From assembly GCF_001612555.1 (NCBI RefSeq), contig NZ_CP015110.1, positions 3,224,001 through 3,288,000 on the forward strand: a stretch of DNA of 64,000 bases, written 5' to 3'. The notes under the pieces are model-generated. The model was not told where the DNA came from, searched no databases, and worked only from the letters and a program-made list of their open reading frames with translations. The position numbers and the translations under genes are program-made. Positions 15,942 to 63,526 of the stretch are shown one piece after another. Every line of letters starts with the position of its first letter. Position 1 is the stretch's first letter. This stretch comes from Acinetobacter sp. TGL-Y2. Lineage in GTDB: Bacteria > Pseudomonadota > Gammaproteobacteria > Pseudomonadales > Moraxellaceae.

Positions 15942-16583
15942 CTAACCTTTAAATTTAATCCACTTTTTTGTTGAGTCGTTATAAGTTATAAAAAGCCAAA
16001 GTGCATTATTTTCAAAGATATAATCTGATACTGTAACTTTATCTCCTTTAATTAAATAAGATTTTCTAATCAAAAAATGATTATTTTTTCTTTCATAGAG
16101 GAAGGTTTTTTTATCAAGTGTTATATATCCATTATCCATATTACATGTTTTTTTATAACTTTCTAGATTGTTAAGCAAGTAAGAAACTAGTTGCCTATTG
16201 TGTTCTTTTTTTAAAGGAATACATGACATTAGCAAGTAGGATAAATCTGTATTATCAGTAAAATTATTACCAATCTTCTCAATAGATCTTAAAAAAATAG
16301 CATTATTTCTAGGTGTAGGAGCTAACAACAATTCAGATATAAAATAATTTTTACTAGGAGTTTTTACCTCATATGTATCTTTAAAACTGAAACATGGAAA
16401 GAAAAAATACGTTTTTTCTTGCCCTCCTGCCAGCAAAATTTTTTGATTCCCTCTAGAAAAGATACATTCATTTTTTTTATCATCTACTGAATAAGAAAAA
16501 TCTGTATTTGCTACATTTTTATTTATAAAGAGGATATTTAAGCTAGCTAGAGCAACAACGAAGCACAATTTTAAAATATTCAT
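15942..16583 (-). CDS. Putative secreted protein, candidate immunity for the muramidase effector
   Basis: 213 aa from ATG at 16583, not recognised by sequence. Residues 1-24 (ILKLCFVVALASLNILFI) form a signal peptide or anchor, so the product is exported. Four cysteines in the mature part could form disulfides. It begins 12 bases after the stop of the muramidase effector gene on the same strand. T6SS muramidases act in the periplasm and their immunity proteins are usually exported and encoded directly downstream, so an immunity role is inferred from position and signal peptide only. The gene is AT-rich with no frame damage. Confidence 0.6.
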   Translation of the reverse strand: MNILKLCFVVALASLNILFINKNVANTDFSYSVDDKKNECIFSRGNQKILLAGGQEKTYFFFPCFSFKDTYEVKTPSKNYFISELLLAPTPRNNAIFLRSIEKIGNNFTDNTDLSYLLMSCIPLKKEHNRQLVSYLLNNLESYKKTCNMDNGYITLDKKTFLYERKNNHFLIRKSYLIKGDKVTVSDYIFENNALWLFITYNDSTKKWIKFKG

Positions 16584-16595
16584 ATAACTCAAAAC

Positions 16596-17158
16596 CTATG
16601 GCAGACTACCTGTATTGTTAACAAAAAAATCATACGCCTCTTTCATTTTTACATCATATTTATTATCAGCATACCTAGGGCCATTATAACCTCTAGCAAA
16701 ATTATCCCATTTTTTGCCTTGAATAGCACTAAGCAAATTTTTATCGTATATAACAAAGTTTACAAATTGTTTTAACTGTTCTTTTTCACTCGTAAATGCA
16801 TCCGTTATCATCTCTTTTACATTTGCATGACCACAATTTTTAAAATTTGCACCCATGATCTGAAATTTACCCCAAGAGCAACTTTTCAATCCTGCATCTT
16901 CATTCAACCCCATGGCTTCTAATAATTTTGGATATTGAGCACTATATTTTCCATATTTTGAAGGATCATATGGTCCAGATATTAACTGATGACTTTTATT
17001 ATATTTCCCACCAGTAAAATTTCGAAAATAGTGTCTTTCAAATAGGATTGTTGGTACTTTTTTTCCTAGATAATCTTGAAATGCACCACGAGTAGAACTT
17101 TCTACTTTAGCCACAGCTTTTATCGCAGCTACCTCACATTTTAGGCTTCTGGCTGCAT
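16596..17158 (-). pseudogene. T6SS muramidase effector, C-terminal catalytic part (cut off by IS630)
   Basis: N-acetylmuramidase domain (DUF3380-like) whose visible start is truncated by the IS at 17159-17160. The frame is open from the IS border: NAARSLKCEVAAIKAVAKVESS, then TILFERHYFRNFTGG, SWGKFQIMGANFKNCG and KKWDNFARGYNGPRYADN. The Glu of KVES is the expected catalytic acid by family comparison. A GTG 48 bases inside could start a 172-aa product, but it would begin only three codons before that Glu. Joined to the part at 18158-19104 after removal of the IS and one TA, the gene reads as one frame of 503 aa. Confidence 0.85.
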
Positions 17159-17160
17159 TA

Positions 17161-18155
17161 TAGCTGCAATCTTATTTTGGGATACAATGATAAAAAATTA
17201 ATTTGTTCAAGATCATGCCTAAAGTATATTCAGTGGATTTACGTGAAAAAGTCATGCAGTTTTATGAAGAAAATAATCACAAATCATATACATGTAAAAC
17301 CTTTAAAATATCTAGAACCACTTTGGATGATTGGATTCTTCTTCAAAACACCACTGGAGAATTGAAACAGCCTAAAATCAATGCAGGTCGACCCACTAAA
17401 ATCAAGGATATGGATGCTTTCAAACACTTTATTGAAACTACTGAATTTTCTCAAGTGAAAGATCTCATCCCTTTATTTGAACAAAAGTTTGGGTATCCAA
17501 TCCTTTACTCAACCCTGTTAAAAGCCATTCATAGACTTGGTTGGACACGTAAAAAAAGAGTTTTCTCTATAAGCAAGCCGACAAAATAACAAGGGCTGTA
17601 TTCAACTGGTTTCTTCCGCAATGGAAAGAGGAGTTTGGGGAAGATCAGATTCTTTATATTGATGAGTCTGGGATAAACACCACAGATACAGCGCAATATG
17701 GTTGGTCTAAACTAGGCAGTCGTTGCGCTGCTTTAAAATTGGGTGGTCATGGTAAAAGATTAAGTATCATCAGTGCTGTGAGGTCTAATTCAGCGTATCA
17801 GTTCCTTTACCCTTTGATTTTTCAAGGTTCATGCGATCGAGCAATGTTCACGGGATGGTTGAGATATCTACTTGAAAATTTAACCAAAGATAATCAAGAT
17901 AAGACCAAAAGACATCTGCTGATTCTAGATAACGCTTCGATTCATAAGAACGGAGATATCAAAAAACTAGCCAAAGACTTTAACTGTAGAATCATGTACT
18001 TGCCTGCTTACAGTCCAGATTTAAATCCAATTGAAAAAGCATGGTCAGTGCTAAAATCCAAAGTTAAAAGTATCGCTGTCCGTTTTGACAAAAACATAGA
18101 AGAAGCGCTCGATTTAGGCTTGAAGGCAATGTAGCTTAAAATTTAAATCCAGCTA
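17161..18155 (+). mobile_element. IS630-family insertion sequence, copy 1 (995 bp)
   Basis: Ends are TAGCTG... and ...CAGCTA, short inverted repeats that, with the flanking TA on each side (17159-17160 and 18156-18157), match the TA-target habit of the IS630/Tc1 group. The limits come from comparing this copy with the second at 61813-62807: sequence agreement stops just beyond the TA on both sides. The transposase is encoded in two overlapping frames. It is inserted in the muramidase effector gene, with transposase direction opposite to the interrupted gene. Confidence 0.92.
17215..18134 (+). CDS. IS630 transposase OrfAB, produced by -1 frameshift
   Basis: OrfA (17215-17589) starts MPKVYSVDLREKVMQFYEE and has the helix-turn-helix CKTFKISRTTLDDWI. 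OrfB lies in the -1 frame and carries the DDE domain: QILYIDESGI (first Asp), HLLILDNASIHKN (second Asp), YSPDLNPIEKAW (Glu). The run AAAAAAAG at 17551-17558 is a classical slip site. A shift there joins GWTRKK to SFLYKQADKITRAVF, the normal continuation in the family, giving about 306 aa. OrfB has no good start of its own, so the fusion is the likely active enzyme. Confidence 0.88.
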
Positions 18156-19104
18156 TAACATAGTCATCTTCTGTAAGTTTATTTCCTGTATATAGTGGAA
18201 TACATGAACTAATAAATTTATTTATGCCAGATGGTGCATTTTGAGTGCTCTGGGGTTTTTCTGTATTTGTTATTCCTTTTTTTAAGTCTACAGGTACTCT
18301 AATTTCAAAACCTGATTTTGGTTTCATTCTAGAAGCAACATAAGTTTTAGTTTGAAAAGGAGTATTATCAGGTTTATAGATGGTTAATTGAAGTGGATGA
18401 CCTATAAGTGTTTGTATATTTAGCTCTCCATTTTTTACAACTTTTGTCGCTGAGCTATTATTGTAAGTGATTTGAATTTTTGCATTTGGATAGATATGAC
18501 TTCCATCAATATCAAGTATTTTTGCAGTTGTCTTTGATAAGAATTGTGATTTTTTGTATTTATGTTTTACTATAATTAATCGACTTTCATTAGAGTTGGC
18601 ATAGCCAATTGGAATAAAATTATCATCTAAATTTAATGACTTAAACTCTACTGTTCTATTCTTGGATGATTGAAATTCAACTATTCCATGATCATCAGTT
18701 GTCCATTCTGCAAACTTTGATGAATTAGTATATCCAGTCCTTATAGGAAAATTCATTAGTATAGATCCATCAGAATCTACTAATTTTAGTTTTAACTTAT
18801 TTAAACCACTATCAGCTTTTTTTGAATATGCACTGATAGGGTATTTAATTGGGATTTTTTGTATTTGATTTCGTGCAGAAGTAGAATTCAATGTTTTATA
18901 GTATTCCATCTTCCCCAGAGGGCTTTCAACATGTATTTCAAAATCCCTATTCTCTGAAACGTTAACTATTCTATGACCAAAATTATTAGTCCTTTCTTCA
19001 TAAAAAGACGTTTGCTTAACGTAGTTTGTTCTAACATTAATATTCTTTATTGGTACATCTTTTGAATCTAATATTAAAAGATCAATTTTTATAAAATTAG
19101 ACAT
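18136..19104 (-). pseudogene. T6SS muramidase effector, N-terminal part (interrupted by IS630)
   Basis: First 315 codons of the effector; the last few codons and the stop of this reading (IAGFKF) are supplied by the IS end. The sequence shows three repeats of about 90-100 residues, each beginning with a strand such as IDLLILDSKDVPIKNINVRT, LKLKLVDSDGSILMNFPIRT or TAKILDIDGSHIYPNAKIQI, resembling transthyretin/carboxypeptidase-regulatory-like domains. A linker (KGITNTEKPQSTQNAPSG) follows, and the muramidase would follow it. It begins 8 bases after the orphan VgrG-tail gene. The beta repeats may dock the effector on that tail; this is inference. Confidence 0.8.
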
Positions 19105-19112
19105 ACTTTACC

Positions 19113-19589
19113 TTATTCTTTATCTGCTTCTGCGATATCAGATTCATTGTCATCTTCTAGAGATTCTAATTTTTCTTCATTATTCTCTAAGTTATTTTCA
19201 AAAAATAGGAATGGATTATCACTCATGCATAGAATTGAACGAACTTCTTCTGAGTCTTCTGTATAGAACCTTTGAGCATTTGAAAATGAATCATCATTTT
19301 TACTTTTTAATATAGATTTACTAATTAAACGATTATCTTTATTAGAAACAATAAATAGTTCTTTATTTAAAGATAAATCTATATTGTTGCTATCTTTTTG
19401 ATCCGGAAGATTGGACTTATATTTAAATTTCAAGCTGTAACTCGTTGGTAGATGAGGAAGTACTTTCTCTTCCGAAACAACATTCATCCCACCTTCAAAC
19501 TTATGTTGTCCAGCTTTATAAATAATTTTTCCGCCTGTAGAGATAGTAATCCCATCATCACTGATCACAATACGAGAACCACCTGCCAT
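19113..19589 (-). CDS. Orphan VgrG C-terminal (DUF2345-like) protein
   Basis: 158 aa that begins straight at MAGGSRIVISDDGITISTGG and KIIYKAGQHKFEGG, which corresponds to the end of the DUF2345 beta-helix of T6SS spike protein VgrG. The large gp27/gp5-like part is absent. Downstream of this motif comes an acidic, non-conserved tail ending in Glu/Asp repeats. It has its own ATG with a weak GAGAAAT site and is head-to-head with the Ntn-like gene at 19662, so it looks like a stand-alone gene rather than a cut end. Likely role: adaptor that carries the effector encoded 8 bases downstream, or a displaced VgrG tip. Its paralogue is at 63622. Confidence 0.7.
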   Translation of the reverse strand: MAGGSRIVISDDGITISTGGKIIYKAGQHKFEGGMNVVSEEKVLPHLPTSYSLKFKYKSNLPDQKDSNNIDLSLNKELFIVSNKDNRLISKSILKSKNDDSFSNAQRFYTEDSEEVRSILCMSDNPFLFFENNLENNEEKLESLEDDNESDIAEADKE

Positions 19590-19661
19590 TTTTATTATTT
19601 CTCTAATACTTAATTATGTGACTAAAATAACATAACTTTTTCAAATTAAGAAAATTCTTAC
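19590..19661. promoter_or_regulatory. Divergent promoter region between VgrG-tail and Ntn-like genes
   Basis: 72 bases, extremely AT-rich, must contain both starts of transcription for the head-to-head pair. I cannot assign individual -10/-35 boxes safely. The same arrangement recurs at 63527-63621. Confidence 0.45.
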
Positions 19662-20393
19662 ATGACGATGATCATTTCAGCTCATCTAGAAGGTTGCTTA
19701 CTAATTGCAGCAGATAATCGAGCAATGGTGTGTGATGTAGAGACAGGGGAAATGCTTCTATCTCATGATGATGAAGCTAAAATTAAGTTATGGAGTTTAG
19801 GTGCAATTGCAGGGACAGGCGAAACGGTCTTTTTAAATCGAATCATGGACTATTTTTCTCACTTTCAAGCAAAAGAACAGCAACTCAAACAAATGGATGT
19901 GATTTATGAAGAAATTGAAAAGCGTTTAATGGAAGGTGTCCCAAAAGAAATGCTGATCAATAATACATTGATATTTTCAATGTTTGATGGTGAGCAAAGC
20001 CATCTGTATTCCATTCCGATAGAACCGTTTTTTAAAGAGATTGAACGAAAAGATGGCGTTAAGGTTATTCATCCCTATGTCCATGAAATCTATCCTTGGA
20101 TAGTCGATGTCACCTGTTTTAACTTACCACCTGATATGAGTAGCCTACAAAACTTCCAACGGCACTTAAGAAGTCTATCGAGCTTTGATAATGAATCAAC
20201 TTTTCTTGAATATCACATCCAACAACTGAAAAAAGTTTTTGCGGTACAAGCCTCAATAGATCCTAGTATCACAACATCTTTTGATCTGTATATTCAAATA
20301 TGTGCTACAGGACATAGCATAGCACTGCACATTGAAAATCCTGTTTTAGCCTCACCATTCCCTAAAAAGTTAAATTATTGGGATCGAAAATGA
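19662..20393 (+). CDS. Ntn-hydrolase-like protein (proteasome beta fold), T6SS-island associated
   Basis: 243 aa, not a named family to me. After Met removal the chain would start with Thr1 (TMIISAHLEGCLLIAADNRAM), with Asp at 17 and Arg at 19, the spacing of proteasome beta and HslV subunits. A Lys follows (DDEAKIKLW, Lys39 or 41) and a Gly-rich turn (AIAGTGET), matching Lys33 and the Gly47 loop. A paralogue at 62897-63526 keeps all of these plus a C-terminal LKK(V/I)F and S(T/S)SFD pattern. Divergent from the VgrG-tail gene. Activity (peptidase, amidase, immunity or none) is unknown; fold and catalytic residues are inference from motif spacing. Confidence 0.6.
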   Translation: MTMIISAHLEGCLLIAADNRAMVCDVETGEMLLSHDDEAKIKLWSLGAIAGTGETVFLNRIMDYFSHFQAKEQQLKQMDVIYEEIEKRLMEGVPKEMLINNTLIFSMFDGEQSHLYSIPIEPFFKEIERKDGVKVIHPYVHEIYPWIVDVTCFNLPPDMSSLQNFQRHLRSLSSFDNESTFLEYHIQQLKKVFAVQASIDPSITTSFDLYIQICATGHSIALHIENPVLASPFPKKLNYWDRK

Positions 20394-20426: not shown

Positions 20427-20466
20427 AAAAACCCCTGTTAAGTCTTGCAACTTAGCAGGGGTTTTT
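20427..20466 (+). terminator. Strong terminator after Ntn-like gene
   Basis: AAAAACCCCTG pairs perfectly with CAGGGGTTTTT, and inner TTAAG/CTTAG bases extend the stem with a bulge, ending in a T run. It lies 34 bases after the stop of the 243-aa gene. Confidence 0.9.
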
Positions 20467-56348: not shown

Positions 56349-57975
56349 AATTTAATCCCCCTAATAAATTTTGAATTTCAGTTTCTAATTTCCTAGACTC
56401 AAGGAATAAATCAGATAAGCTATTAGTATAATCCAACATGATTGTTGTAAAGTCTTCGGTACTTAAATCAATATGCTCTATTTTTGATAAAAAATACTGC
56501 CCTGCATTAAAAGAATAATCCTTGTTAACAAGATCTTCATACTCTACAGCTATAGAAAATTTATTTTCTTCTCTCTTCTGGTTAAAGCATTCAATTATTC
56601 TTTGCTCATCTGAGTCACTTAAGATAGTTCTCTGATTTTTACCATCTTTAATTTTTTCTCCAAGTTCTGATGCATCGATTAGCATCACTTTATCTTTATT
56701 ATTAGCATCGACAAAAATAATTGAAACACTTGTTCCAGTCGTAGCAAAAATATTGGAAGGCATAGAAATTACGCCTGCTAAAATTTTATTATCCACTAAA
56801 TGTTGCCGAATTTTCTTATCAATACCTGATGCTGCTGATATAAAGCCAGTTGGGACAACTATCGCGGCTTTCCCATCCTCTTTTAAAGAAGAAATGATAT
56901 GTTGCAAGAACAATTGGTAAATTTCCATCTTGTCCTTTTCTTTTGGCTTAATTTTTGGAATACCGCCAAAGAAACGCTCTTTGTTCGCCTTTGTGTCCAA
57001 ATCATCTCTAAAATCACTAAAATCTAGTTTAAAGGGTGGGTTGGAAACAATATAGTCAAACTTTTTAAGCTCAGCCCCATCCTTATGGTATGGATGAAGC
57101 ATGGTATTGCCTTGTACTACATTCGGAATAGAGTGAACTAAGTTATTCAGAATTAAGTTCAAACGTAATAAATTTGATGACTTTTGAGAAATATCTTGTG
57201 TGTAGATAGCACAACGCTTTTCACCAATAACATGAGCCACATTCATTAACAGAGTTCCTGACCCCGCAGCAGGATCATAACAAGTTACATTCTTTACTTG
57301 TCCCTGTTGATCCTTGGGTACAAGGATCTCTGCCATAATACGTGCAACGGCATGTGGTGTATAATATTCTGCGTATTTACCTCCACTATTCGAATTATAG
57401 TCTTTAACTAAATATTCAAAGATAGAAGCATAAAAATCGAATTTCTGATCAAAAATTCGTTCAAAACTAAACTCTACTAATTCATTAATGATCGCTTTAC
57501 AAAATTCATCTCGCTTAGAAGGATCACTAATAAACTGGCTAAGCTCATCAAATAGCTTAATTTTTGCATGGCCATCAGTTTGAACCGCAAAAATCTCATT
57601 ATTCTGAATAGAAATATCTCTTAATGTATCATCAAAAAGTTTTGAAAAATCAGGTTCATTTTGCTGGCTGAATAGGTAACTAATAAAGTGCTGTGGTTTG
57701 AGAATTGCTGTATCTGCTGGCATCTGTAAAGCAAGCATCTCTAACTCATCATCCGACATTTTAGAGAGCACATCTTCCCATTTTTCAGCTTCAGCTAAAC
57801 TTGGTTCCACTTTTTTTGCTTCATAAGCAAATTTATCATTCAAAAATTTATATAAAAAAGCCTGCGTGATAATTTTAAATTCATTACCATCATTACCAAG
57901 TCCATAGTTAGCACAGATAGCTTTTAAACCATCAATAAGTTCTCTTACTTTTTGCTGAAACTGAATTTCTACCAT
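56338..57975 (-). CDS. hsdM: Type I restriction-modification methyltransferase HsdM
   Basis: 545-aa N6-adenine methyltransferase. N-terminal HsdM helical domain, then SAM motif I CYDPAAGSGTLLMNVA and catalytic motif IV YIVSNPPFKLDF, followed by GKAAIVVPTGFISA. Works as a 2:1 complex with HsdS. Overlaps both hsdR (7 bases) and hsdS (11 bases), so the three are tightly coupled. Confidence 0.95.
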   Translation of the reverse strand: MVEIQFQQKVRELIDGLKAICANYGLGNDGNEFKIITQAFLYKFLNDKFAYEAKKVEPSLAEAEKWEDVLSKMSDDELEMLALQMPADTAILKPQHFISYLFSQQNEPDFSKLFDDTLRDISIQNNEIFAVQTDGHAKIKLFDELSQFISDPSKRDEFCKAIINELVEFSFERIFDQKFDFYASIFEYLVKDYNSNSGGKYAEYYTPHAVARIMAEILVPKDQQGQVKNVTCYDPAAGSGTLLMNVAHVIGEKRCAIYTQDISQKSSNLLRLNLILNNLVHSIPNVVQGNTMLHPYHKDGAELKKFDYIVSNPPFKLDFSDFRDDLDTKANKERFFGGIPKIKPKEKDKMEIYQLFLQHIISSLKEDGKAAIVVPTGFISAASGIDKKIRQHLVDNKILAGVISMPSNIFATTGTSVSIIFVDANNKDKVMLIDASELGEKIKDGKNQRTILSDSDEQRIIECFNQKREENKFSIAVEYEDLVNKDYSFNAGQYFLSKIEHIDLSTEDFTTIMLDYTNSLSDLFLESRKLETEIQNLLGGLNFEE

Positions 57976-60900
57976 TGCCCTGAACCACCATTGAACTCTT
58001 TGAGGTACTCATTTACCACAAGCTGGTTAATATACCGTGTAGTCGTTGGATTTAATGCAATGTTCTGTTCATTTTTAAAGCGTTTGATAATATTCGGCAT
58101 CATCACTCGAGCAAAGTAAGCTTCGTTATCTAATACATTTTCACTGTCTAGCACACGCTCATCTGCATCCTGTTTGAGTCCGATCAAAGCTTCATAAATC
58201 TGTCTCTCAGATTTTGAAATATCTCCTTGCTCATGCAGTCTCTTATGCACACGCGTGAACTTAATATCCCCTTTATACTTATCACTGAGTTGCTTATTCG
58301 CACGATTCAATTCTTTTATCCGCTCATGAATTTGTTGCAAAGTACCAATATTAGCAACCATCTCTTGCTGACTAACTTCGCTCAATCTCTTCTTTTTGAA
58401 CAAACGTTCGAGCTCTTCTTTTAAGCTGATAAATTTCTCATCTTGCTGGTCAAAATTACTCGCTAGAGCCTCTCTCGTTTTACGTAATGTATCTTTGAGT
58501 TGATCAGCTAGAACTAATTCTTCTTCCGCAATTTTCTTAAATTTAAAAATTACATCTTCAAGAGCTAAATTAAGTAAATTTGTAGTGTCTTCACCACTTT
58601 CAATACTTTCCTTTAAATTCAGCATATCTAAATGATTGCTTATTTCTCGGAACATAATGTTGATCTTTACAAAATCTAAAGATCGAAGTTGCTCATAATC
58701 GCCCTGTAACCTCATGAGGTTATATAAGCTTTTTGCATCAGCTAAGCTTTTCTTCAATTCCAATACTTTTTTACGGTCAGCAATTTGTTGGATTTGCTCT
58801 GAGAAATGTTCCATGTTGTCCGTATCAAAACGGAATAACACATCTTTTAATTGAATAATTTCCTGATCAATTTCTTCTTTAGATTTGAAGAGATGAGAAT
58901 AGCTATCCATCTCATCGCCTAACTCTGCCTGCAATTCCTCAAAATAGGCTTTGTTTGTTGCATCAAATTCTTTTCGAATATCTGCAAAGTCAACAACGTA
59001 ACCATACCTAAAATCTTTATACGTGCGGTTCACACGAGTTAATGCCTGAAGCAAGTTATGCTCTCGAATCACACGGCCAATATAAAGCTTCTTTAACCGA
59101 GGAGCATCAAAACCAGTCAGCAACATGTTATAAACAAAGAGAAAATCAATTTTTCCTGCTTTAAAAGCATCAATCCAACCTTTACGCGCTTGTTTGTCAC
59201 CTACATCATGTAAAATGAGTGCAGCAGATTTAACTTTGTTTTTTTCTTTTAAATGCTCTATATAAGATGTATCTGTCTTAGTAACATCATTGTCTTTTTT
59301 ATATTTTGCATTAAAAATTTCAAACATCTGTTTCGCTTGCTCTGAGCTATCACAGATGACCATTCCACCTATAGTCGAATCATTGCAAGCACCACGACTA
59401 TTTTCAAAATCTTGAACAATGTAATCCAGCATTGGTTCTACAAAAGTTGGATGTGCATAAATAATTTTTTTATCGACATCTCCCTGCTTAACCTCTGCTT
59501 GTGCTAATGCCTCTTGTAAAGCAATTTTATAGTTGGTTTGAATATCTTCTCGAATCAAACGTAATGTATATCCATCAGCAATTGAAGCATTGTAGTAATA
59601 CTTATGAATGTAATCTCCAAACAGTGATCTTGAATTGTAGTCTGTTCCTAATAGCGGAGTTCCTGTCAGACCAATTTTGATTGCATTACGATCAGAAACA
59701 TCTAAATTTGCAAGAAAGCTACCTTTAGGATTATAGCTACGATGTACCTCATCTAAGAAGTAAACCCGCTGAATATCAACACTGTAATCCTTTGTTGAGA
59801 CAATGGTTGGATCATCTGCGAACTTCTGGATATTGATTACAGTAATCTCTGGTTTGCCACTGTTATTGTGGATGGCCTTAGTTGCCTTAATATCTTTAGT
59901 AAATTCATCTCTAGAGTTAATCGTATGTACAACTAGGCCACGGCTTGCAAATTCACTCTGTGCTTGCTGTAGTAAATCAAGTCGATCCACAATGAAATAA
60001 AACTTAGGAATTACACTATTTCGTTGATAATAATCCGTCAAAAATTTGACGTTATAGTACGTTAATGCTGTTTTACCACTACCTTGAGTATGCCAAATAA
60101 TTCCTTTACGGATGCCTTCATCTAACTTTCTTTCAATTGCCTTAGTTGCAAACAGTTGTGGATAGCGCATGATATGTTTTTGCACACCATCTTCTGTTTC
60201 CACATAAGCAATTGAATAACGTAACATAAATGCTAAACGCTCTCGGCTTAACAAAGAAGTACAAATTCGGTTAGTAGGTCTATTAGGATCTTTATTGGTA
60301 ATAAATTCAGGGCTATTTCTAATCACTTCAAAATTATTATCTTTAAGAATACGAATTTCTTCTGATTCAGCTAAAGGACTAAGTAAATAAGTTAGATTAA
60401 AAATTTCTTCTTCTCGGAAGTAATTAAAACTTGGCTTGTGATACGACGGAGTAGCATAAAAAGCGCCCATGATTGGCTGAATAGCCTCATCGTCGTATTC
60501 CATATTGTTTGAGAAGATCATGAACTGAGTAATGTTGATAAATCTTTTAAATTTAGAGTTTTGGAAACGCTTATTTATTCGGTCTCTTTCTGCTAAGACA
60601 CCATCTTTATTATTTGGTTTCTTCACCTCAATAAAAACTAAAGGCATACCATTGACTAGGATCGTAATATCAGGACGGAATTCATCATCTCCATTTTGAC
60701 AAGTAAGCTCCGTAACAACATTGAATGTATTGTTATTGATATTTTCAAAATCAATGAGTTTGATACCAGAACGATTGACTAACTTGCTGAAGAATACTTT
60801 CCCTAAATCATCATTGTCTAAAGTTAGCTTTAAATCTTGTAATTCTCTTTGAATATCATCTTTTTCAAATGAAGGATTAATTCGTCTTACTGATTCCAAG

Positions 60901-61028
60901 AATATTTCAGGGAAAATATTAGACTCCATATCCCATATATGTTCTTTTAAAGAAAGATACTTATAACCAAGCCTTGTTAAATGAAGAATTGTTGGAATTT
61001 TTACACGAGCATCTTCATTGAACTTCAT
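57969..61028 (-). CDS. hsdR: Type I restriction enzyme motor/nuclease HsdR
   Basis: 1019 aa. N-terminal PD-(D/E)xK nuclease (FRPDITILVNGMPLVFIEVKKPN), then the helicase motor: Walker A GIIWHTQGSGKTALTY, DEVH box YFLDEVHRSYNP, GLTGTPLLG and motif VI ALTRVNRTYKDFRYGYVVDF. A long helical C-terminus binds HsdM. Start ATG 61028 lies 36 bases after the XRE gene on the same strand. Complete. Confidence 0.95.
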   Translation of the reverse strand: MKFNEDARVKIPTILHLTRLGYKYLSLKEHIWDMESNIFPEIFLESVRRINPSFEKDDIQRELQDLKLTLDNDDLGKVFFSKLVNRSGIKLIDFENINNNTFNVVTELTCQNGDDEFRPDITILVNGMPLVFIEVKKPNNKDGVLAERDRINKRFQNSKFKRFINITQFMIFSNNMEYDDEAIQPIMGAFYATPSYHKPSFNYFREEEIFNLTYLLSPLAESEEIRILKDNNFEVIRNSPEFITNKDPNRPTNRICTSLLSRERLAFMLRYSIAYVETEDGVQKHIMRYPQLFATKAIERKLDEGIRKGIIWHTQGSGKTALTYYNVKFLTDYYQRNSVIPKFYFIVDRLDLLQQAQSEFASRGLVVHTINSRDEFTKDIKATKAIHNNSGKPEITVINIQKFADDPTIVSTKDYSVDIQRVYFLDEVHRSYNPKGSFLANLDVSDRNAIKIGLTGTPLLGTDYNSRSLFGDYIHKYYYNASIADGYTLRLIREDIQTNYKIALQEALAQAEVKQGDVDKKIIYAHPTFVEPMLDYIVQDFENSRGACNDSTIGGMVICDSSEQAKQMFEIFNAKYKKDNDVTKTDTSYIEHLKEKNKVKSAALILHDVGDKQARKGWIDAFKAGKIDFLFVYNMLLTGFDAPRLKKLYIGRVIREHNLLQALTRVNRTYKDFRYGYVVDFADIRKEFDATNKAYFEELQAELGDEMDSYSHLFKSKEEIDQEIIQLKDVLFRFDTDNMEHFSEQIQQIADRKKVLELKKSLADAKSLYNLMRLQGDYEQLRSLDFVKINIMFREISNHLDMLNLKESIESGEDTTNLLNLALEDVIFKFKKIAEEELVLADQLKDTLRKTREALASNFDQQDEKFISLKEELERLFKKKRLSEVSQQEMVANIGTLQQIHERIKELNRANKQLSDKYKGDIKFTRVHKRLHEQGDISKSERQIYEALIGLKQDADERVLDSENVLDNEAYFARVMMPNIIKRFKNEQNIALNPTTTRYINQLVVNEYLKEFNGGSGQW

Positions 61029-61063
61029 GGAACCCTCATAAAATTAATATAAATTTTTGTTTA

Positions 61064-61279
61064 TCATATATTATTAGGTAATAAATATTTTGCCGCTACA
61101 CCTAAAGCAGTAGCTAATTCATATATTTTTTCAAGTGTAGGATTCACCTCACCTCTTTCGATCCGTCCTAAATAACTCCGATCCATGTTACAGAGCAATG
61201 CCAATTGTTCTTGTGACATATTTCTTTCTTTTCTATATTTGCGAACCAATTGCCCAAATTGAATAGTAAGTTCTGACAT
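61064..61279 (-). CDS. XRE-family regulator (C-protein-like)
   Basis: 71 aa from ATG 61279 with a single helix-turn-helix: RKERNMSQEQLALLCNMDRSYLGRIERGEVNPTLEKI, seen by its SQEQLA and RSYLGRIE helices. Size and place directly before hsdR suggest a controller that delays restriction until methylation is established, though C proteins are better known from type II systems. Confidence 0.8.
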   Translation of the reverse strand: MSELTIQFGQLVRKYRKERNMSQEQLALLCNMDRSYLGRIERGEVNPTLEKIYELATALGVAAKYLLPNNI

Positions 61280-61374
61280 AAACATTCAAATGCTTAAAAA
61301 ACAGAACTATCACTATTTGAGGACTATATATCCACGGATTATAATCCTCTTTTTAAATTTTCTAGTCTTTCGTC

Positions 61375-61815
61375 ATGAAACAAATTGCTTCGCCTATCTT
61401 TCAATCTTTTCTAGTACTTCTCTCCCACAATCAAATTGATGGATGGACAACAAATAAAATTTGGAACAACTTGAATCTTTCTAAAGATGAAAGGCAACGT
61501 ATCAACCAACAGCAGCTTTATAGGATCCTTAGAAAACTTGTACAGCAAGGCTACTTGATTAAAAACATTCACTTAGACAATCGAAGACTTTCTACATTTG
61601 TTGAAACAAAAAGTATGGATTCTTTCAAAAAACAATTCGAAAATCATATCGTGACACATGATTCAGAAAAACTTGAATTAAAAACTAAAGAATTAAAAGA
61701 AAAGCAAAAGATTTACGAAAACCAAATCAAAGCTTCTGAACAAGCCCTTGAAGATTTTCCAGAATTGAAATCTGAAATTTTGCGTAAAAGAAAAGATTTA
61801 CAAAAAGATGTATAG
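61375..61815 (+). pseudogene. Winged-helix/coiled-coil protein, C-terminus cut by IS630
   Basis: The 146-aa reading ends on a TAG supplied by the IS end (KDV then stop). An N-terminal winged-helix-like domain (about 1-75: GWTTNKIWNNLNLSKDER, QQQLYRILRKLVQQGYLIK) is followed by a coiled coil (ELKTKELKEKQKIYENQIKASE). Removing the IS and one TA continues the frame with EQLEAYSSFINRLISNF and a stop, giving 163 aa. So only 17 residues are lost and activity may remain. Divergent from the XRE-hsd operon and possibly its regulator; function not recognised. Confidence 0.7.
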
Positions 61816-62807
61816 CTGCAATCTTATTTTGGGATACAATGATAAAAAATTAATTTGTTCAAGATCATGCCTAAAGTATATTCAGTGGATTTACGTGAAA
61901 AAGTCATGCAGTTTTATGAAGAAAATAATCACAAATCATATACATGTAAAACCTTTAAAATATCTAGAACCACTTTGGATGATTGGATTCTTCTTCAAAA
62001 CACCACTGGAGAATTGAAACAGCCTAAAATCAATGCAGGTCGACCCACTAAAATCAAGGATATGGATGCTTTCAAACACTTTATTGAAACTACTGAATTT
62101 TCTCAAGTGAAAGATCTCATCCCTTTATTTGAACAAAAGTTTGGGTATCCAATCCTTTACTCAACCCTGTTAAAAGCCATTCATAGACTTGGTTGGACAC
62201 GTAAAAAAAGAGTTTTCTCTATAAGCAAGCCGACAAAATAACAAGGGCTGTATTCAACTGGTTTCTTCCGCAATGGAAAGAGGAGTTTGGGGAAGATCAG
62301 ATTCTTTATATTGATGAGTCTGGGATAAACACCACAGATACAGCGCAATATGGTTGGTCTAAACTAGGCAGTCGTTGCGCTGCTTTAAAATTGGGTGGTC
62401 ATGGTAAAAGATTAAGTATCATCAGTGCTGTGAGGTCTAATTCAGCGTATCAGTTCCTTTACCCTTTGATTTTTCAAGGTTCATGCGATCGAGCAATGTT
62501 CACGGGATGGTTGAGATATCTACTTGAAAATTTAACCAAAGATAATCAAGATAAGACCAAAAGACATCTGCTGATTCTAGATAACGCTTCGATTCATAAG
62601 AACGGAGATATCAAAAAACTAGCCAAAGACTTTAACTGTAGAATCATGTACTTGCCTGCTTACAGTCCAGATTTAAATCCAATTGAAAAAGCATGGTCAG
62701 TGCTAAAATCCAAAGTTAAAAGTATCGCTGTCCGTTTTGACAAAAACATAGAAGAAGCGCTCGATTTAGGCTTGAAGGCAATGTAGCTTAAAATTTAAAT
62801 CCAGCTA
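61813..62807 (+). mobile_element. IS630-family insertion sequence, copy 2 (995 bp)
   Basis: Same length and same translated ORFs as copy 1, with a fixed offset of 44,652 bases, in the same direction. Flanked by TA at 61811-61812 and 62808-62809. Inserted near the 3' end of the winged-helix gene. The sharing of sequence stops right at the TA on both sides, confirming the boundaries. Confidence 0.92.
61867..62786 (+). CDS. IS630 transposase OrfAB, copy 2
   Basis: Identical arrangement to the first copy: OrfA with helix-turn-helix, OrfB with the DDE triad (YIDESGI, LILDNASIH, PIEKAW), joined by a -1 shift at AAAAAAAG 62203-62210 to give about 306 aa. Both copies being intact suggests recent transposition within this genome. 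Confidence 0.88.
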
Positions 62808-62896
62808 TAGAGCAATTAGAAGCTTACTCATCATTTATCAACCGACTGATTTCGAACTTTTAAAAGAAATATGCTCATACAGTTTTAGATTCTAAT

Positions 62897-63526
62897 TTAG
62901 TCACAGCATTCATAGAATATTCCAAAAGTTGTATGAGCACATATATCAAAAGAAGAGCTAACAGTTTCATCAAAACTATTACAAACATGAAAAATTTTTT
63001 TTAATTTTTTTATATAAAAATTCATCCATTCTTCTTTAGATTGGAACTGATCCATATTCTTCAAATTCGCATGAAGATCAATTAACAAGCTACTTAATTT
63101 ATTCATATTTTCAGATCTGATTGTCAATTGAATGGTCATAGGTTCCACGATATTTGAATAGATATTTCCGACTTGATCAGTTGAAAATATTTCTAAAATT
63201 AAACGATTGTTTTTCCTTGAAGAAAAAAACAACTTTGTTTTTCCAATTTGTTCATGTTCACCTATTTCTGTTTTTCTTCTTTGAATTTCTTTAAAAAAAC
63301 TGTTGGACAGCATCTCAGATGTAGTTTTGTCTAAAAGCTCTTCTTTCAATCTTCTGATAATTAAGGCATCTCCACTACCAGAGAAAACAATAGGCTCCAG
63401 ATAGGTGATTTTTTTATAAGAATCGGAAATTATTGAAAATTTTAAATCATCTGTCTCTTGGGTTAATCGCTGATCCGCAGCAATAATTACGCTATCTTTT
63501 AGTTGGATTCCAATAATTAAAGTCAT
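62897..63526 (-). CDS. Ntn-hydrolase-like protein, paralogue of the 19662 gene
   Basis: 209 aa. N-terminus TLIIGIQLKDSVIIAADQRL: Thr1 after Met removal, Asp17, Arg19 and Thr21 exactly as in proteasome beta subunits. Then YKKITYLEPIVFSGSGDA, with Lys37/38 and the Gly-rich loop where proteasomes have Lys33 and Gly47. The C-terminal FYIKKLKKIFHVCNSFDETVSSSFD aligns with the paralogue. Head-to-head with an orphan VgrG-tail gene, as at the first locus. Function unknown; enzymatic activity is inferred from residue spacing only. The 89-base stretch back to the IS holds the lost end of the winged-helix gene. Confidence 0.6.
   Translation of the reverse strand: MTLIIGIQLKDSVIIAADQRLTQETDDLKFSIISDSYKKITYLEPIVFSGSGDALIIRRLKEELLDKTTSEMLSNSFFKEIQRRKTEIGEHEQIGKTKLFFSSRKNNRLILEIFSTDQVGNIYSNIVEPMTIQLTIRSENMNKLSSLLIDLHANLKNMDQFQSKEEWMNFYIKKLKKIFHVCNSFDETVSSSFDICAHTTFGIFYECCD

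Follow-up and report, generated by a model that had tools for sequence, protein, structure and literature searches.

A 64,000-nucleotide stretch of Acinetobacter sp. TGL-Y2 (contig NZ_CP015110.1; G000:C1:3224001-3288000, hereafter the window) carries, at two places, a gene for a proteasome-like N-terminal nucleophile (Ntn) hydrolase that is divergently transcribed from a gene for an orphan tail, i.e., a detached C-terminal piece of VgrG, the spike protein of type VI secretion systems (T6SS). The pairing is nearly strict, beyond what chance would give: 46 of 50 near-full-length Ntn genes face an orphan tail, which looks intact in 45 cases and is split by insertion sequence (IS) elements in one. 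We propose that these loci are vgrG-free T6SS cargo cassettes and that the Ntn enzyme processes the head of the tail before loading, a reading to which, as a whole, we assign a probability of about 0.5. That a detached VgrG C terminus replaces VgrG in a T6SS cargo cassette is, judged from sequence, highly probable; the further step, recognition and processing of the tail head by Ntn ahead of loading, is put forward tentatively. The two pairs are laid out as follows.

19113..19589, minus strand: orphan VgrG tail gene, 158 amino acids (aa); a head homologous to the DUF2345 end, followed by a muramidase-cargo-type C-terminal domain
19476..19589, minus strand: conserved head of the tail (M-AGGSRIV...KAGQH.F); it is this part that co-varies with Ntn
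19590..19661: spacer between the divergent start codons, 72 bases
19662..20393, plus strand: Ntn-hydrolase (predicted proteasome-fold) gene, 243 aa; Thr after Met1, Asp18, Lys40
62897..63526, minus strand: second Ntn gene, 209 aa
63622..64000, plus strand: second orphan tail gene, 133 aa in all; its stop lies 23 bases past the window end

The sequence-only reading of this DNA had described the divergent pair at locus 1 and its recurrence in mirror image. Both are present, with a spacer of 95 bases in the second pair. The two window Ntn proteins are only 24% identical, which excludes a single recent duplication of the whole block, and the two tails are 28% identical.

Ntn genes and orphan VgrG tails are rarely found apart

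Queried with each Ntn protein, the 3.69-Mb genome gave six full copies plus a C-terminal fragment, which lies on contig C3 (G000:C3:3607-3897; an 8.7-kb contig, perhaps a plasmid). All six full copies face an orphan VgrG tail; the sixth (C1:1175007) was counted as head-to-head because pieces of its tail sit on either side of insertion elements. When the genome was scanned for DUF2345, seven matches that passed the cut-off lay in long frames; five more fell below it, in shorter frames that each adjoin an Ntn start. No vgrG gene was found beside the six cassettes of this genome, which in this respect differ from stand-alone DUF2345 adaptors.

The 50 Ntn loci, broken ones included, comprised the 6 of this genome, 33 of 35 individually retrieved loci, 7 more from a scan of species genomes, 3 on plasmids, and 1 in a phage. 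Fragments L103 and L104, the contig-end copy L069 (tail present), plasmid fragment H4, the C3 fragment, phage record H6 (same phage as H5), and contig L130 (an apparent copy of this genome's L040) were left out. Some of the 50 are close relatives (e.g., L075 to L078), and L053 (A. gerneri, tail present) was counted here but did not enter the later comparisons. Four Ntn genes had no tail: L056 (transposase remnant, contig end), L085, L100, and L101. The last two (L100:6001-6588 and L101:5605-6192) encode distant, 196-aa relatives on a long branch, and their neighbors look, by eye, like ATPase/HNH or tape-measure genes.

The converse relationship was examined with a head profile run against 40 genomes, of which 23 carry Ntn and 17 lack it, covering all but the weak end of the match list. 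The best 24 head matches (66 to 94 bits) all lay in frames of 67 to 233 aa, versus 62.4 bits for the best vgrG-length frame, and 23 of these 24 adjoin an Ntn gene, the exception being L118. Twelve further or lone short-frame regions were inspected, with nine short-frame matches at contig ends left out; two proved to be orphan tails without Ntn, and the rest were broken vgrG genes or contig-end vgrG pieces. Genome G093 holds both Ntn-less tails (L118 and L121) as well as the tail-less Ntn L085, and an integrase gene lies upstream of L118. The sequence-only reading would have failed had the two families usually occurred apart; across Acinetobacter they rarely do.

A six-row Ntn profile matched 26 of 119 Acinetobacter genomes (the present one among them), and a pattern scan of species genomes yielded at least 20 loci, of which 16 were in Acinetobacter, 3 in Alkanindiges, and 1 in a Moraxellaceae metagenome-assembled genome. 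Among 293 genomes of the order the sole other match was weak and spanned 36 positions, and 369 genomes of the class likewise gave one weak match (E value of 0.004), so that within the genomes searched Ntn is restricted to Moraxellaceae. On mobile DNA, Ntn was found in four plasmids of Acinetobacter (as a fragment in one of them), in one phage represented by two records, and in one viral contig. The L040 locus (C1 near 2,753 kb) abuts portal- and terminase-like prophage genes (labels by eye), and a like stretch occurs in the viral contig L130.

Ntn co-varies with the tail head and hardly with the cargo

The locus 1 tail had been called a DUF2345-only VgrG tail. It is indeed VgrG-tail-like; it retains just the end of DUF2345 (profile positions 118 to 150 of 151; 23.5 bits, below the Pfam cut-off of 30.7) and continues into a different C-terminal domain. 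A26-G-Q-H29, F31, G34, and P45 were invariant in 31 tails. Most orphan heads (29 of 34) begin M-A-[GS]-G, and five, including the second window tail, have N-terminal extensions; a second group of heads begins M-[AGS]G[KR]F, where this genome's own vgrG genes read T[GA]GKF. Thr precedes a like stretch in 9 of 16 vgrG heads, one of the 16 being a chance match. Orphan and vgrG heads also differ in composition, with mostly I/V versus mostly K/E at some positions and T[IVLF]I versus mostly FPT at others. In the structural model of the tail (pLDDT of 69.6, pTM of 0.46), the head forms three short strands, and residues 51 to 122 are rich in beta structure.

Co-variation was assessed in 33 modules, after dropping L066, L086, the near-duplicates L076 and L078, and loci without a called cargo gene (e.g., L041, which is the second window locus); for L037, where the tail is fused to a toxin-like part, the next gene served as cargo. 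Ntn similarity followed that of the 30-residue head (Spearman-Mantel r of 0.71, reached in 0 of 2,000 shuffles), and did so even given the C-terminal domain (0.69). The correlation of Ntn with the tail C-terminal domain was weak (0.19; 37 of 2,000 shuffles) and fell to 0.02 given the head, and that with cargo was 0.13. The C-terminal domain correlated with cargo (r of 0.25; 0 of 2,000), and the head itself hardly did. L093 and L102 illustrate the exchange, being alike in C-terminal domain (0.60) and cargo (0.51), with Ntn at 0.09. On a maximum-likelihood Ntn tree, 14 of whose 39 inner branches are open, five cargo types required 11 changes versus a mean of 12.0 for shuffled labels (67 of 200 as low). 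Given that Ntn tracks the head, that the C-terminal domain tracks the cargo, and that cargo types are scattered over the Ntn phylogeny, the constant part of the module seems to be Ntn together with the head, with the C-terminal domain, the toxin, and the rest exchanged.

Ntn is a predicted proteasome-like enzyme

The proposal that the divergent gene encodes a proteasome-fold-like protein was borne out by structure prediction. An AlphaFold2 model built with 29 sequences (pLDDT of 89.5, pTM of 0.86) has the fold of a proteasome beta subunit: Foldseek matched it over its full length to 20S beta subunits and Anbu (E values from 2.5e-8, probability of 1.00), with moderate TM-scores, 0.45 to 0.58 by query length among the matches listed. 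Bacterial proteasome-like homologs include HslV, Anbu, BPH, connectase, and 22 new subfamilies such as GPH (Fuchs et al. 2021, PMC8665760), and the proteasome-type residues named there are Thr1/Ser1, Asp17, and Lys33. In all 29 aligned Ntn proteins, the residue after Met1 is Thr (27) or Ser (2), and Asp18 and Lys40 are invariant, Lys40 being matched to Lys33 by profile alignment; the N-terminal nucleophile assignment assumes removal of Met1. Ntn has no evident signal sequence.

Sequence similarity to known families was weak throughout. Of 23 PDB sequence matches listed, the best had an E value of 0.019 and 22 were proteasome beta chains; the best NCBIfam model was archaeal proteasome beta (E value of 0.001; 18.7 against a cut-off of 224), and the best PHROGs match of the second window Ntn was a family of HslV (E value of 2e-4). 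Likeness to connectase was weak: PF09894 matched in 3 of 29 members (best E value of 0.006), and no connectase chain appeared among the PDB sequence matches up to an E value of 10. A defense-system identity was rejected, the best PADLOC match being partial (E value of 0.0024).

The ratio of nonsynonymous to synonymous substitution rates (dN/dS) was 0.16 to 0.36 in the 12 Ntn pairs computed, indicating purifying selection. Together with the predicted fold and the active-site residues, this speaks for an active enzyme; together with the near-strict pairing, it supports the functional unit suspected in the sequence-only reading.

Cargo families support a link of the cassettes to T6SS

Twenty cargo proteins were compared with Pfam. 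Six had matches above the cut-off (LysM twice, once with M15; VRR-NUC; Ntox15; Tox-REase-5; DUF2515), and two had sub-threshold matches alone. The N-acetylmuramidase of the window (PF11860) adds to the toxin families behind tails, and in L037 the tail itself is fused to a toxin-like part. DUF4123 is a T6SS adaptor family. Plasmid records carry, behind tails, annotated DUF2345, DUF4123, and Tox-REase-5 genes in a row, polymorphic toxin type 15, and "Rhs." Clustering of cargo proteins gave four clusters that mix orphan-tail and vgrG loci.

LysM type: shared with this genome's own VgrG locus L047 and the broken vgrG L122
Muramidase type: shared with the broken vgrG L120
Cluster with the Ntox15 protein of L083: shared with own VgrG locus L048 and with L123
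Cluster with L094: shared with own VgrG locus L045

Tails that precede LysM cargo also resemble the vgrG tail that precedes LysM cargo in L119. L122 was considered as a natural vgrG split and rejected as such, being a vgrG gene with an in-frame stop.

VipB was found in 69 of 119 genomes, namely, in 22 of the 24 that carry a cassette (the present genome among them) versus 47 of 95 others (Fisher P value of 1.3e-4; G015, with an Ntn fragment, and G024, with a tail-less relative, both lacking VipB, were placed among the others). Genes that look, by eye, lipoprotein-like or signal peptide-bearing occupy the usual immunity position behind the toxin. In L079 (G047), three tandem similar lipoprotein-like genes follow the DUF2515 cargo in an arrangement resembling an immunity array.

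The six cassettes of this genome differ in what follows the tail (several labels by eye).

Near 90 kb: HExxH protein fused to the tail
Near 941 kb: 299-aa gene and lipoprotein-like gene behind the tail
Near 1,172 kb: 415-aa gene and lipoprotein-like gene behind the tail
Near 2,752 kb: LysM protein and Sel1-like gene behind the tail
In the window: the muramidase locus and the VRR-NUC locus

In the VRR-NUC locus, which is the second window cassette, the VRR-NUC protein and a 425-aa protein follow the tail beyond the window end. Three of the Ntn copies in this genome are 72 to 82% identical to the Ntn of L037, with different cargo.

Proposed mechanism and alternatives

In the reading we favor, one gene string would encode the detached VgrG C terminus (DUF2345-end head plus cargo-type domain) together with the toxin carried by it and a likely immunity protein, and the divergent gene a dedicated proteasome-fold hydrolase. 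The orphan tail would dock on a VgrG spike encoded elsewhere and bring the toxin there, after Ntn had recognized and processed its head. This proposal draws on sequence and a predicted structure, namely, the near-strict pairing, the catalytic residues, the fold, the exchange of cargo, and cargo families common to vgrG loci. By analogy with known adaptors, the simplest reading would be that orphan tails bridge toxins to VgrGs encoded elsewhere, with Ntn as an additional player that either processes the head or polices it; such an enzyme is the likeliest role for Ntn.

Several observations weigh against this reading. The cargo gene of locus 1 is interrupted, its 322-aa frame ending in an IS630 element and its muramidase frame running into the other edge of that element. 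Twelve of the 20 cargo proteins had no Pfam match at an E value of 0.01, and the cassette genomes G053 (three cassettes) and G094 lack VipB, unless T6SS was lost there. The tail model had no PDB match with an E value under 0.1, leaving the fold of the C-terminal domain unconfirmed; the label "TTR-like" therefore rests on likeness to VgrG C termini and on published work (PMC11796386, PMC6960284). In the co-variation set, 70 of 2,000 shuffles reached the small Ntn-cargo correlation, and the second gene behind the tail tracked nothing, cargo included, in the 33 modules. Adjacent sequences share history, so the co-variation of Ntn with the head supports, and does not prove, contact. Finally, the two Ntn-less tails of G093 look intact.

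The strongest alternative, which we regard as having perhaps a modest chance, is that Ntn is a guard or quality-control protease, for which the head would be a degradation signal and which would clear tail-toxin complexes that no spike took up. The active-site residues, the proteasome-type fold, the co-variation with the head, and the separate transcription unit would all suit a guard, and the data do not separate guarding from processing; however, no unfoldase gene, as a degrading proteasome-type enzyme might want, lies beside Ntn in the loci inspected.

It is rather improbable that Ntn and the head are kept as a recombination platform for cargo exchange, with Ntn serving a general cell function and having no part in loading. 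In four of the six loci of this genome, DNA similarity begins immediately beyond the Ntn stop codon and reaches no farther than about codon 43 of the tail, the cargo is reshuffled, and two tails manage without a neighboring Ntn, all as a platform would predict. The two window loci share with the other own loci only 83- to 110-base stretches in the head; apart from this, what the own loci have in common are insertion elements and short repeats, plus a 473-base stretch in the case of one pair. Against a platform, partner and layout are kept at 19 to 27% protein identity, where DNA recombination would fail, and Ntn is under purifying selection.

Ntn might instead be a transpeptidase that exchanges spike tips post-translationally: its Thr would cut VgrG ahead of the AGGSQ-type or [AG]GKFE-type stretch and join on the detached tail, whose N terminus after Met removal would begin with the matching residues. 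The M-A-[GS]-G starts of orphan heads and the Thr before a like stretch in vgrG heads would fit, as would the M-[AGS]G[KR]F heads beside T[GA]GKF in own vgrG genes. Simple truncation explains the same starts, though, and the five N-terminally extended heads do not suit the idea, which we consider very unlikely.

Slightly less credible still is a role for Ntn as an immunity protein, which the sequence-only reading had listed, or as a toxin-specific maturation factor. Ntn does adjoin the toxin operon, but it tracks the head and hardly the cargo, cargo types are scattered on its tree, and other genes occupy the usual immunity position. That the tails are vgrG debris and the pairing is hitchhiking was rejected: broken vgrG genes do occur (L119, L120, and L122), but the uniform starts of the orphan heads and the position of the best head matches, all in short frames that score above the best vgrG frame (62 bits) and nearly all beside Ntn, make this least probable of all.

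Relation to known systems

The sequence-only reading had called the unit undescribed to its knowledge. This holds in part. Stand-alone DUF2345 adaptors beside vgrG are known: such a protein binds VgrG and the toxin, and toxin-VgrG binding was found by experiment to require it (Wang et al. 2023, PMC10673891). In the parts of that report available, DUF2345 types, found by scanning genes downstream of vgrG, correlate with the toxin, and no Ntn gene is mentioned. As there, a separate gene for a DUF2345 segment here precedes the toxin, and the tail C-terminal domain correlates with cargo; unlike those adaptors, which lie directly behind vgrG, orphan tails occur away from vgrG, hold only the DUF2345 end, and face Ntn. 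The Ntn partner and vgrG-free cassettes were not found in the open PMC literature (titles and starts of abstracts, with preprints and most subscription journals outside its range), nor was any link of proteasome-like or Ntn proteins to T6SS cargo.

Other systems share single features, as far as the available passages describe them. The C-terminal TTR-like domain of VgrG17 recruits the Tae17 cargo, which has N-terminal Ig-like and LysM domains (PMC11796386); several orphan tails and LysM cargos resemble the L119 vgrG tail and its LysM cargo, the likeness to VgrG17 and Tae17 themselves being by description only, and there the tail belongs to VgrG itself. Acinetobacter PAAR-2b proteins carry a DUF2345 domain, with a suggested adapter role (PMC6838775), and so also place a VgrG-tail segment outside VgrG; that segment is fused to PAAR, and "ntn" and "proteasome" have 0 occurrences in the main text. 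The proteasome homologs of PMC8665760 resemble Ntn in its predicted fold and in having an N-terminal Thr/Ser, Asp, and Lys at matching places, whereas Ntn is tied to T6SS cassettes and confined, in the genomes searched, to Moraxellaceae. Because the new homologs came without genomic context suggestive of function, the cassette context is a useful lead: a little-known branch of the proteasome superfamily gains a candidate substrate, a 30-residue spike segment, which makes its function directly testable. More broadly, small cassettes without vgrG, carried on plasmids or located next to prophages, may serve as vehicles for T6SS effectors. Since searches anchored on vgrG would miss such cassettes, Acinetobacter effector inventories may be incomplete.

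Insertion elements and neighboring features

The sequence-only reading had placed a muramidase effector alongside locus 1. A PF11860 match does lie near the tail, but the muramidase is one piece of a cargo gene interrupted by an IS630-type element, as laid out below.

18136..19104, minus strand: N-terminal piece of the cargo gene, 322 aa; macroglobulin-like MG4 match; final codons within the IS630 copy
17159..18157, plus strand: IS630-type element splitting the cargo gene
16596..17114, minus strand: N-acetylmuramidase piece of the cargo gene (PF11860, E value of 5.6e-49); frame open to 17171, within the IS630 element
15942..16592, minus strand: 216-aa protein, an immunity candidate from position alone; a Pfam scan gave no match
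20443..20460, plus strand: terminator-like stem-loop 3' of Ntn (1 found, 0.5 expected)
61811..62814, plus strand: IS630 copy adjoining the second Ntn gene

Because the element splits the cargo gene, the locus 1 toxin is probably not made as one protein in this genome. Uninterrupted relatives of the N-terminal piece exist, e.g., a 536-aa protein in L074 whose C terminus has a sub-threshold GH19 match. The promoter scan of the locus 1 spacer region gave no excess (1 found versus 3.7 expected).

The IS630 element is present in 17 copies at 99% identity in this genome. Four of them are located in one of the six cassettes or at most about 0.2 kb from one, namely, the two window copies listed above and those on C1 near 938 kb and 1,173 kb, and two of these four interrupt a tail or cargo gene. 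Near the second cassette, at window positions 57969-61285, are a type I restriction HsdR-like gene and a small helix-turn-helix gene, named by eye.
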